From assembly GCA_001000545.1 (NCBI GenBank), contig LCOC01000001.1:1-45593 (forward strand): DNA of 45,593 nt, read 5' to 3'. The notes under the pieces were generated by a model. That model made no database searches and was not told the DNA's origin. It saw nothing but the letters and a program-made list of their open reading frames with translations. The DNA is from Parcubacteria group bacterium GW2011_GWA2_47_21 (GTDB taxonomy: Bacteria > Patescibacteriota > Minisyncoccia > Phycocordibacterales > DSPV01). Below, one piece after another: positions 17,401 through 21,562 of this stretch. The first letter of the stretch is position 1, and every line of letters begins with the position of its first letter. The position numbers were made by a program, and so were the translations under genes.

Positions 17401-19212
17401 ATGGAAATTAGAAACATAGCCATTATCGCCCATGTTGACCATGGCAAAACCACCTTGACTGACGCCTTAATGCGGGAAACGGGCATGGTTAAGGACGCAA
17501 GCGTCAGTATGGATTCCAACGCTCTTGAACAGGAGCGCGGCATTACTATTTATTCAAAAAACGCTTCGTTTTTTTGGAAAGGGACAAAGGTGAATATCGT
17601 AGACACGCCCGGCCACGCTGATTTCGGCTCGGAGGTTGAACGGGTGCTCCGCTCTATTGACACGGTGCTTCTCGTGGTGGACGCCCAAGAAGGGCCGATG
17701 CCCCAGACCAGATTTGTGCTCAAGAAGTCCCTTGAACTCGGCTTAAAGCCCATCGTCGTTATAAATAAGATTGATAAGCCGGCAGCCAGGCCGGCGGAAG
17801 CGCATGATGAAGTGCTGGAACTTTTTATGGAGCTTGGCGCAAGCAATGAACAGCTTGATTTCAAGACGCTTTACGCTATCGGCCGGCAGGGCATCGCCAA
17901 AAGGCGCTTGAACGATGAAAATGAAAATCTCGCTCCCCTTCTAGACACCATCTTAAGGGAAGTGCCGCCGGCCAAAACCAAAGACGCGCACGGGGAAAAA
18001 CTTTTAATGCAGCCCTTTAACTTGGGCTATGACAACTTTCTCGGCCGTTTGGCGGTTGGGAGAATCTATCAAGGCGTCGTCCGCCAAGGAGATGGGGTTT
18101 TTGTAAAAAAGACAAACGGCGAAACGGAAGAAGGCAAGATTACAAAAATATTTACCTTTGAGGGTATGGAAAAAAAGAGCGTGCCGGAAGCGTTTGCCGG
18201 CGATATCGCCATGGTTGCCGGTTTGCCGAATGTCTATATAGGCGACAGTATTTGCGAAAATGCCGAACAAACACCTATGCCCGCCATCGCGATTGACGAG
18301 CCGACCATTGCCATAAATCTGTTGGTGAACGACTCCCCTTTCGGCGGACGAGAAGGCAAATTTGTGACCACTCGCCAAATAAGGGAGCGCCTCGAGAAAG
18401 AGCTGGAGGTTAATGTCGGCTTAAAAATCGATTGGAGCGCGCCCGATTTCTTCCGGCTTTACGGGCGAGGTGAGCTTCATATTTCCATTCTCTTGGAAAA
18501 TATGCGGCGCGAGGGTTTTGAATTTCAGGTCTCCGAACCGCAGGCGATTATCAAAGAAGAAAATGGCGAGCGATTAGAGCCGTTTGAGGAGGCGGTCATT
18601 GACGCACCGGCCGCTTCCGCCGGTTCGGTGATAGAAAAGTTAACGCGCCGGCGGGGCATTCTGACGGCAATGAAAGAAGAGAGTTCGCATACCAGGATGA
18701 TTTTTGAAATGCCGACCCGAGGGCTCTTGGGTTATAGAAGTGAATTTATCATTAACACCAAAGGCGAGGGCAGTTTGTCCTCCCGCTTCATCGGTTTCAA
18801 ACCGTTCGCCGGAGACATAAAACGGCACACTTTCGGTTCAATGATTTCAATGGAGAACGGCACGGCCCTCGCCTATTCCCTTTTTAAACTGCAAGAGCGC
18901 GGCATTATATACATAGACCCGGCAACGCCGGTTTATGAAGGAATGATTATCGGCAACACCGCCAAAGGCGAGGACTTGGATGTGAACCCGACGAAAAATA
19001 AACAACTGACGAATTTTCGAAACACCAGCATGGGGGACGCGATTGACCTCACTCCCCCATTCCGGCTCTCTATTGAACGCGGCATGGAAATAATGAAAGA
19101 AGACGAGTACCTGGAAATCACGCCGAAATCGGTCCGGCTTCGCAAGAAATATCTTTCAAAAACCGCCCGCGCCAAAGCGGAGCGCCAAGAGAGAAAAATC
19201 CCTGACGATTAA
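17401..19212 (+). CDS. typA: Ribosome-associated GTPase TypA/BipA
   Basis: AHVDHGKTTLTDALMRETG, DTPGHADFGSEVERVL, NKIDKP; EF-G-like C-terminal domains and TypA CTD. Confidence 0.96.
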   Translation: MEIRNIAIIAHVDHGKTTLTDALMRETGMVKDASVSMDSNALEQERGITIYSKNASFFWKGTKVNIVDTPGHADFGSEVERVLRSIDTVLLVVDAQEGPMPQTRFVLKKSLELGLKPIVVINKIDKPAARPAEAHDEVLELFMELGASNEQLDFKTLYAIGRQGIAKRRLNDENENLAPLLDTILREVPPAKTKDAHGEKLLMQPFNLGYDNFLGRLAVGRIYQGVVRQGDGVFVKKTNGETEEGKITKIFTFEGMEKKSVPEAFAGDIAMVAGLPNVYIGDSICENAEQTPMPAIAIDEPTIAINLLVNDSPFGGREGKFVTTRQIRERLEKELEVNVGLKIDWSAPDFFRLYGRGELHISILLENMRREGFEFQVSEPQAIIKEENGERLEPFEEAVIDAPAASAGSVIEKLTRRRGILTAMKEESSHTRMIFEMPTRGLLGYRSEFIINTKGEGSLSSRFIGFKPFAGDIKRHTFGSMISMENGTALAYSLFKLQERGIIYIDPATPVYEGMIIGNTAKGEDLDVNPTKNKQLTNFRNTSMGDAIDLTPPFRLSIERGMEIMKEDEYLEITPKSVRLRKKYLSKTARAKAERQERKIPDD

Positions 19213-19235: not shown

Positions 19236-19306
19236 TCGGGGTACCCGGTAATGCTCCGGGGCCTCACGCACCCCATGCGTGTATACTGCTTTTATACTAT
19301 ACCCCG
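19236..19306 (-). tRNA. tRNA-Pro(GGG)-like cloverleaf with non-canonical D- and T-loops
   Basis: Minus strand CGGGGTA TA GTAT AAAAGCA GTAT A CACGC ATGGGGT GCGTG AGGC CCCGG AGCATTA CCGGG TACCCCG A: all stems pair, anticodon GGG with U33 and G37, A73 discriminator; no encoded CCA. Confidence 0.75.
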
Positions 19307-19443: not shown

Positions 19444-19527
19444 GACCCAAACGCCTATTCTCAAATTCCTTGCCTCGCCCTGCCTGCCGGCAGGCAGGTT
19501 GGGAATTTGAGAATAGGCGTTTGGGTC
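19444..19527. terminator. Long perfect inverted repeat between typA/tRNA region and uvrB (possible terminator)
   Basis: 26-bp perfect arms GACCCAAACGCCTATTCTCAAATTCC / GGAATTTGAGAATAGGCGTTTGGGTC, with palindrome CCTGCCTGCCGGCAGGCAGG (19479-19498) in the loop. Confidence 0.65.
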
Positions 19528-19531
19528 GGAA

Positions 19532-21562
19532 TTATTTGTCTGAGTGAATTAATTTTTCCAATTCCTTAATTTCATCCCGAAGCAACGCCGCCGATTCAAA
19601 GTCCAAAATTCTCACCGCCTTGCTCATTTGCTTCCTTTTCTCGGCGATAAATTTATTGGGGTTGTCTTTAAAGAGCTTACTGTCCAGAATCAAAAGATTC
19701 CTCACGATTTTTTTATGCTCGCTTCCAAACTCTTCGGTAATATCCTTAATGATTTTAGAAATGGTCTTCGGCGTGATGCCGTGGCGTTTGTTGTAAGAAA
19801 GTTGGATTTTGCGCCGGCGGTTTGTCTCTCTTATCGCCTTCTCCATTGAACCGGTGCTCTTATCGGCGTAAAGAAGGACTTTGCCGTTTACATTCCGCGC
19901 CGCCCGGCCAATGATTTGGATTAAAGAAGTCTCGGAGCGGAGAAACCCCTCCTTATCGGCGTCTAAGATGCCGATAAGGGAGACCTCTGGCAAATCCAAA
20001 CCCTCACGAAGCAGATTCACTCCCACCAAAATATCAAAATCGCCGCGGCGGAATTTTGAAAGAATTTGGATGCGCTCCAAGGTTTCTATGTCGCTATGAA
20101 GGTACTCGGCCTTTATTCCCCTTTCTTTCAAGAAGGCCGAAAGGTCCTCGGCCATCTTTTTTGTAAGCGTCGTGGCAATCGCCCGCTCCCCTTTTTTAAT
20201 AACGATTTCCGCCTCGGCGATAAAATCCTGGATTTGGCCTCGGTGTTTTCCGGATGAAATAATCGGCCGGACCTCCAGCTTGGGGTCAATAAGACCGGTG
20301 GGCCGAATGACTTGCTCCACCACTTTCCCGCTCTTTTCCTTCTCGTAGTCCCCCGGCGTCGCCGAAGTGAAAATCACCTGCCCCACCCTCTCCCCAAATT
20401 CCAGGAATTTAAGCGGACGGTTGTCGGCCGCCGAAGGCAGGCGAAAGCCGTGCTCTATAAGCGTTTGTTTCCGCGAAGCATCGCCTTGTTCCATACCGCC
20501 GATTTGCGGCACAGTGACATGGGACTCGTCTATAATCGTCAGAAAATCCGGTTCTCCATTTTCGGTTTTTGGGAAATACGAAAGCAGAGTGTCAGGCGGC
20601 TCGCCCGGAAGTTTCCCTGAAAAATGCCGCGAGTAATTCTCTATGCCGTTGCAATAACCGACCTCGCGGATAAGCGCCAAATCATAATTGGTCCGGCGCT
20701 TGAGCCGCTCCGCCTCCAGGGTTTTTCCTTCTTTCTGAAGGGCCTTAAGCCGCTCGGCCAGTTCTGATTTGATGGTTGTGGTCGCCCGCTTCACGGTCTC
20801 TTTATCCGTAACGAAATGCTTGGCCGGAAATATGAAAATCGTCTCCGTATTATTTTCTATGACGTCTCTGGTAATCGGGTTGATTTTGGAAATTTTTTCT
20901 ATCCGAGCGCCGGCAAATTCTATCCGCTGAATTATTTCTTCCCCGGTCGGCATAATTTCAACGCTTTGTCCAAGCGCTCTGAAATGTCCGCTTTTCAAAT
21001 CCGCGTTAGTGCGGGTGAAATAAATGCCGATTAACGCGCGTATTAAATCGCTCCGGGAAATTTTCATACCTCTATCAAAGCGCTTGTTTACCTTTTCATA
21101 CTCCTCGGGACTGCCTAGGCCGTAAATGCAAGACACTGAAGCGACAATGATGACATCGCGGCGGCTTAAAAGCGCCTGTGTGGAAGCGTGCCGAAGCCGG
21201 TCAATTTCTTCGTTTATTTGAGCTTCTTTTTCTATGTAGGTGTCGGTAACGGGCAAATAGGCCTCCGGCTGATAGTAGTCGTAGTAAGAAACGAAATAGT
21301 GGACGGCGTTGTGCGGAAAAAATTCCCGGTATTCTTGGGCCAATTGGGCGGCCAGCGTTTTATTGTGGGCGATAACAAGCGTCGGTTTCTGAATGGCTTC
21401 TATGACATTGGCCATGGTAAATGTTTTGCCGCTCCCCGTCACTCCAAGAAGCGTCTGATATCTCTCCCCCGCTTTAAGACCCTCCACTAAACCCTTGACG
21501 GCCTTGGGTTGGTCGCCAGCCGGAGAGAAGGGGCTCTTAAGTTTGAAAGTATCCTTTCGCAT
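19532..21562 (-). CDS. uvrB: Excinuclease ABC subunit B
   Basis: GVTGSGKTFTMANVI, YYDYYQPEAY, VGVNLLREGLDLPEVSLIGILDADKEGFLRS, C-terminal UVR motif. Confidence 0.97.
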   Translation of the reverse strand: MRKDTFKLKSPFSPAGDQPKAVKGLVEGLKAGERYQTLLGVTGSGKTFTMANVIEAIQKPTLVIAHNKTLAAQLAQEYREFFPHNAVHYFVSYYDYYQPEAYLPVTDTYIEKEAQINEEIDRLRHASTQALLSRRDVIIVASVSCIYGLGSPEEYEKVNKRFDRGMKISRSDLIRALIGIYFTRTNADLKSGHFRALGQSVEIMPTGEEIIQRIEFAGARIEKISKINPITRDVIENNTETIFIFPAKHFVTDKETVKRATTTIKSELAERLKALQKEGKTLEAERLKRRTNYDLALIREVGYCNGIENYSRHFSGKLPGEPPDTLLSYFPKTENGEPDFLTIIDESHVTVPQIGGMEQGDASRKQTLIEHGFRLPSAADNRPLKFLEFGERVGQVIFTSATPGDYEKEKSGKVVEQVIRPTGLIDPKLEVRPIISSGKHRGQIQDFIAEAEIVIKKGERAIATTLTKKMAEDLSAFLKERGIKAEYLHSDIETLERIQILSKFRRGDFDILVGVNLLREGLDLPEVSLIGILDADKEGFLRSETSLIQIIGRAARNVNGKVLLYADKSTGSMEKAIRETNRRRKIQLSYNKRHGITPKTISKIIKDITEEFGSEHKKIVRNLLILDSKLFKDNPNKFIAEKRKQMSKAVRILDFESAALLRDEIKELEKLIHSDK

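Follow-up and report, generated by a model that had tools for sequence, protein, structure and literature searches.

A tRNA-Pro(GGG) gene with an alternative D-loop/T-loop elbow in a Parcubacteria genome

The elbow bases G18, G19, U54, U55, C56 and A58 are regarded as near-universal in tRNAs, and tRNA gene finders are designed around them. The window analysed here, a 45,593-nt stretch of DNA from Parcubacteria group bacterium GW2011_GWA2_47_21, carries a tRNA-Pro(GGG) gene that departs from this set (Table 1). Is it a dead gene, an RNA diverted from translation, or a working tRNA built in another way? The first-pass annotation had described a complete 71-nt minus-strand cloverleaf with every stem paired, U33, a GGG anticodon, G37, C1-G72 and A73, and the sequence is exactly so: a 7-bp acceptor stem (CGGGGTA/TACCCCG), a D-stem with two G.U pairs (GTAT/GTAT), an anticodon stem (CACGC/GCGTG) whose loop holds U33, GGG and G37, and a 5-bp T-stem (CCCGG/CCGGG). 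C1-G72 and A73, together with G35 and G36, make up the ProRS identity bases, all of which are present. Its reading of the two loops was equally accurate, in that G19 and C56 survive and positions 18/55 and 54/58 are altered. The gene thus lacks the G18G19 and T54-U55-C56-R57-A58 of canonical bacterial tRNA-Pro(GGG). Since these bases are replaced by a coupled A18/G55 and A54/U58, we treat it as a variant, and it has the full set of features (A18 with G55, A54 with U58, G19 and C56 kept) of an alternative-elbow class.

Table 1. Features of the variant tRNA-Pro(GGG) gene and its neighbours in the window.
Feature	Position	Strand	Basis
Alternative-elbow tRNA-Pro(GGG), 71 nt, no encoded CCA	19236..19306	-	sequence, orthologues, class model
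D-loop AAAAGCA; A18-G19 replaces G18-G19	19287..19293	-	orthologue alignment, tRNA survey
Anticodon loop ATGGGGT; anticodon GGG at 19272-19274	19270..19276	-	invariant in 13/13 orthologues
T-loop AGCATTA; A54, G55, C56, U58 replace U54, U55, C56, A58	19249..19255	-	orthologue alignment, tRNA survey
T-arm CCCGG-AGCATTA-CCGGG; same module in a tRNA-His and phage tRNAs	19244..19260	-	
TypA/BipA GTPase, convergent neighbour	17401..19212	+	Pfam
UvrB, upstream neighbour on the same strand as the tRNA	19532..21562	-	Pfam

The folding energy of the variant is unremarkable (z = −2.1), as is that of canonical tRNA-Pro genes folded alongside it. A scan of the stretch immediately 5′ of the gene found no sigma-70-type sites. 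Between uvrB and the tRNA, at 19444-19527, lies a perfect 26-bp inverted repeat with an CCTGCCTGCCGGCAGGCAGG core, which is probably either a terminator or some repeat element. Proline codons in the main ORFs of the window include CCC in 90 of 394 cases. We saw no sign of a functional linkage between the tRNA and its TypA/BipA or UvrB neighbours. A conserved partner gene was also sought beside the variant in other genomes and rejected: neighbours vary by lineage and include, besides TypA and UvrB (named by Pfam), a DAHP-synthase-like protein, an M50 protease, an RNA polymerase subunit, the CCA-adding enzyme and others, mostly named from reading their translations.

Standard tRNA callers miss this gene, as the first-pass annotation had warned they could. 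In the window it was reported neither by Rfam at its gathering thresholds, nor by RF00005 at E ≤ 10, nor by ARAGORN, which reported 2 of the 13 variant tRNA-Pro sequences described below; a variant tRNA-His was likewise overlooked by Rfam's tRNA model. Gene finders therefore overlook tRNA genes with the alternative elbow. A covariance model of the variant class, by comparison, scores the window's gene at 104 bits, and the next match in the window at 15.8 bits.

A pattern search of the order and a single scan across about 85,000 genomes together recovered 21 variant tRNA-Pro loci with 13 distinct sequences, from Harrison-, Colwell-, Zambryski-, Taylor-, Vogel- and Wolfebacteria and unnamed Parcubacteria, and so from several candidate phyla; one same-family genome has the identical 31-nt 5′ half. 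The 13 orthologues share a D-loop consensus ARAAGCA (AAAAGCA in 12, AGAAGCA in one) and a T-loop consensus AGCRTTA (AGCATTA in 10, AGCGTTA in three), and the anticodon loop, U33, C1-G72 and A73 are constant in all 13. Stem pairing is kept in 99.6% of cells, with 1 of 273 pair cells broken. Six stem pairs changed on both sides, a degree of covariation reached by 0 of 500 shuffles, and shifted controls fail the same test. In 8 of 397 genomes of the order, the class model scored 98-105 bits; all other tRNA-Pro scored at most 79, with none between 79 and 98. When elbow columns were masked in a tree of Pro-GGG genes, the variants still clustered (3 changes against a shuffled mean of 11.1), albeit on few columns. 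The variant is thus far beyond chance, and these alignments show that selection has conserved its cloverleaf, which bears out the earlier claim that random pseudogene decay does not explain it. The alignment of orthologues that had been proposed as a check gave the expected stem conservation, but the loops are almost invariant within the proline class, so that the contacts proposed below rest on a wider survey of tRNAs.

That survey covered tRNAs in the fetched bacterial loci, 199 of them with a parsable D arm. A pyrimidine at position 55 goes with G18G19 in 178 of 178, and G55 goes with A18G19 in 21 of 21. The Fisher p value for this coupling (5e-30) overstates the evidence because the surveyed tRNAs are related. 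The G55 group comprises Pro-GGG, Pro-CGG, Ala-CGC, Ala-GGC, Phe-GAA, Arg-CCT, an initiator-type Met and His-GTG, with Leu-GAG as a further A18/G55-type case in an earlier count of the survey; this number of isotypes shows that the elbow changed repeatedly. A54/U58 was seen only alongside G55. Viral contigs behave in the same way, with A18G19 in 73 of 78 tRNAs that have G55-C56 and G18G19 in 263 of 272 that have U55-C56; these contigs were picked by the elbow T-arm pattern, which biases class frequencies but did not select for coupling within a tRNA. A second viral class couples A19 with U56 (13 cases). Together with the A18/G55 coupling, it indicates that both tertiary contacts covary, and from this covariation we infer A18.G55 and A54.U58 contacts. 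The A19-U56 phage tRNAs (e.g. viral loci L225, L251, L337 and L355), with GA in the D-loop and a TTTGAAT T-loop, are a second compensatory elbow swap in their own right. We also considered a D-loop/T-loop double helix (A15-U59, A16-U58, G19-C56, C20-G55); it is possible for the proline class, but we rejected it because the 20-55 pairing is not kept in other A18/G55 tRNAs.

The same elbow occurs where a tRNA has no detected substitute. In a 95% complete relative (G021), whose tRNAs were recovered with RF00005 and ARAGORN, the sole detected tRNA-His has the D-loop AATAGCA and the T-loop AGCATAA and retains G-1 and C73, and the initiator-type tRNA-Met carries A18/G55. So does the sole tRNA-Phe found in the window's own genome, which is 73% complete. 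The use of this elbow in the only tRNA-His argues for ordinary decoding. Viral contigs have full A54-G55-C56 tRNAs for 12 amino acids (Phe, Met, Pro, Gly, Ile, Glu, His, Lys, Leu, Asp, Val and Cys), mostly within dense tRNA arrays. The elbow T-arm gave 38 structure-passing viral matches, some identical between contigs, compared with 0/38 for a T54 control T-arm. We rejected phage transfer of the tRNA-Pro gene itself: its phage relatives have the elbow in common with it, not the tRNA-Pro body. Patterns for its 5′ half and for the whole gene were absent from the viral contigs searched, as was the tRNA from phage records.

How does the variant relate to canonical tRNA-Pro(GGG)? The first-pass annotation had advised counting proline isoacceptors, and the count turned out alike wherever it was made: Pro-UGG and Pro-CGG but no second GGG, both in the window's own genome (73% complete) and in the four variant genomes whose tRNA-Pro were read (G209, G065, G085 and G323), all of them metagenome assemblies in which an absent gene may be a gap. 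Within one genus, the variant of G323 sits between Pro-UGG and Gly-UCC, where the sister genome G389 has a GGG gene with a canonical elbow; the variant occupies the same slot in a further genome (L094). In G085, the remains of a canonical tRNA-Pro enclose the variant. In G004, where only the 5′ half of the variant was seen, near a contig end, the variant is interrupted by an insertion and a canonical GGG gene lies beyond the split half. The two forms therefore displace each other at one locus in both directions, which suggests interchangeable function. Strict mutual exclusion is only suggestive: a canonical GGG gene is present in 0 of 8 variant genomes and 102 of 389 others (p = 0.12, not significant), and at least one gene with a canonical elbow, whose loop reads CTGGGGG, escaped the search pattern.

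Split tRNAs of this kind are a wider phenomenon in these genomes. At several loci an intact tRNA with 12-20 bp flanking inverted repeats has a second tRNA split around it, usually one for the same amino acid; the nesting is sometimes two shells deep. Such nested genes occur in the window's own genome, G000 (C7:900-1250, L041; C14:12300-12800, L037; C3:4500-4800, L042) and in relatives (G004:C19:11900-12232, L074; G001:C33, L162; G085, L092 and L138), and several units have the ends CTTGCCC...GGGTGAA(G). Their layout suggests very small insertion elements, each disrupting a tRNA while supplying a substitute for it. Since sequence is missing from some of the outer tRNA copies, an intron removed at the RNA level is less likely. 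A palindrome, GCCCCGTTAGA...TCTAACGGGG, is found at G000:C7:1077-1174 and in 9 of 118 relatives, with non-tRNA cargo too; its GTTAGAC/GTCTAAC resemble the integron attC R box consensus. The 0.49-Mb bin G000 also has redundant His, Trp, Val-CAC and Lys-CTT tRNAs, and some of its contigs may be foreign to the bin.

We consider it likely, with a probability of roughly 0.8, that the window's gene encodes a working elongator tRNA-Pro(GGG) that reads CCC and has an alternative A18.G55/A54.U58 elbow. An A18.G55 contact would take the place of the usual G18-Ψ55, A54-U58 would substitute for the U54-A58 pair, and G19-C56 would stay as the outer pair. Such a tRNA would still fold to the L shape, receive proline and work on the ribosome, and over evolution it and canonical tRNA-Pro(GGG) would replace each other. 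Having lost the bases that these modifications target, it presumably could not receive Ψ55, m5U54 or Gm18. CCC is probably readable by the UGG tRNA as well, so the cell may not need the variant gene, which would leave it free to take on a different role.

A further idea would add to the main reading rather than compete with it: the working tRNA may have been retained because its altered elbow keeps it out of reach of insertion elements, modifying enzymes or a tRNA-cutting defence that recognise the normal form. Phage tRNA arrays often contain the class, and TruB was not found in 6 of 8 variant genomes compared with 4 of 12 controls, but this difference is not significant (p = 0.17), no attacker of normal elbows was identified in our analysis, and the variant itself is interrupted by an insertion in G004. 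We consider this addition rather unlikely.

Much less probable is a tRNA-Pro that serves the cell wall, from which a FemX-like ligase would transfer proline into peptidoglycan in the way that staphylococcal tRNA-Gly supplies glycine, a kinship that the first-pass annotation had raised. FemX-like ligases (PF02388) are indeed encoded in the variant genomes G182, G065 and G209, in two of them beside MurE or MurF. A first comparison (3 of 8 variant and 0 of 12 control genomes, p = 0.049) was not upheld, however, when 80 rather than 20 genomes were compared (3 of 14 and 5 of 66, p = 0.14); no such ligase was found in 11 of the 14 variant genomes, including the window's own (73% complete). Moreover, the elbow is not proline-specific and serves the sole tRNA-His detected in a relative, G19 is kept where a cell-wall tRNA would have lost both G18 and G19, and the weak-EF-Tu pairs A49-U65 and A51-U63 of S. 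aureus (PMC4052509) are replaced by C49-G65 and C51-G63. As an observation of its own, the FemX-like ligases in Parcubacteria (L146:127-1197, by MurE; L147:1445-2488; L148:1229-2251, by MurF) suggest that even cells this small build cross-bridges with the help of tRNAs.

A regulatory tRNA mimic, also proposed at first, or a small RNA, in either case without aminoacylation, is just as improbable. The usual T-loop motif is lost, and the single overlap with an Rfam family, a streptococcal sRNA model, falls far below threshold; but a mimic would need neither the invariant discriminator, acceptor end, anticodon loop and U33 nor an exchange with canonical Pro-GGG, and phage tRNAs of many isotypes have this elbow too, as does the tRNA-His of G021. 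A pseudogene or decaying duplicate can practically be dismissed: the lineage has many dead and split tRNA-Pro remnants, and G004 shows only a 5′ half of the variant, but the compensatory stem changes and the retention of both odd loops across several candidate phyla contradict it.

The alternative elbow thus looks like a second working way of building a tRNA, not a dead gene or a cell-wall tRNA. Its recurrence in several isotypes, among them bacterial tRNAs that seem essential, and in phage tRNAs shows that nature can rewire the elbow and offers a clean test of the purpose of the elbow and its modifications. More tentatively, A18.G55 and A54.U58 might form a second self-consistent architecture, present in Parcubacteria and widespread among phage tRNA arrays, that works without Ψ55, m5U54 and Gm18 and shields tRNAs from enzymes or defences directed at the canonical elbow. 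Among the open-licence papers searched, we found no report of the A18-G55 swap, which may be new.

Compared with canonical bacterial tRNA-Pro(GGG), the variant shares the length, the cloverleaf, the ATGGGGT loop, C1-G72, A73 and, in sister genomes, the locus, but has AG instead of GG in the D-loop and AGCRTTA instead of TTCRAYY in the T-loop, and the class model separates the two (98-105 against at most 79 bits). That other elbow solutions can in principle be active is reportedly shown by the suppressor tRNAs with altered D-loop/T-loop contacts selected in the laboratory by the Steinberg group, which, unlike the variant, were selected artificially. In the non-proteinogenic tRNA-Gly of S. aureus (Giannouli 2009, as far as described in PMC4052509), positions 18-19 are also altered, with GG changed to UU or CU alongside A49-U65 and A51-U63, whereas the variant keeps G19, has C-G at 49-65 and 51-63, and shares its elbow with decoding tRNAs that seem essential. 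tRNA-Pyl and type II mitochondrial tRNAs (PMC7609411) are natural, active tRNAs without G18G19 or TΨC. They have reduced D-loops or have lost the loop-loop contact, whereas the variant has loops of normal size and retains G19-C56 along with a coupled 18-55 swap. Finally, the eukaryotic initiator tRNA (PMC7912444) shares A54 with the variant, but pairs it as A54-A58, where the variant has A54-U58 plus G55.
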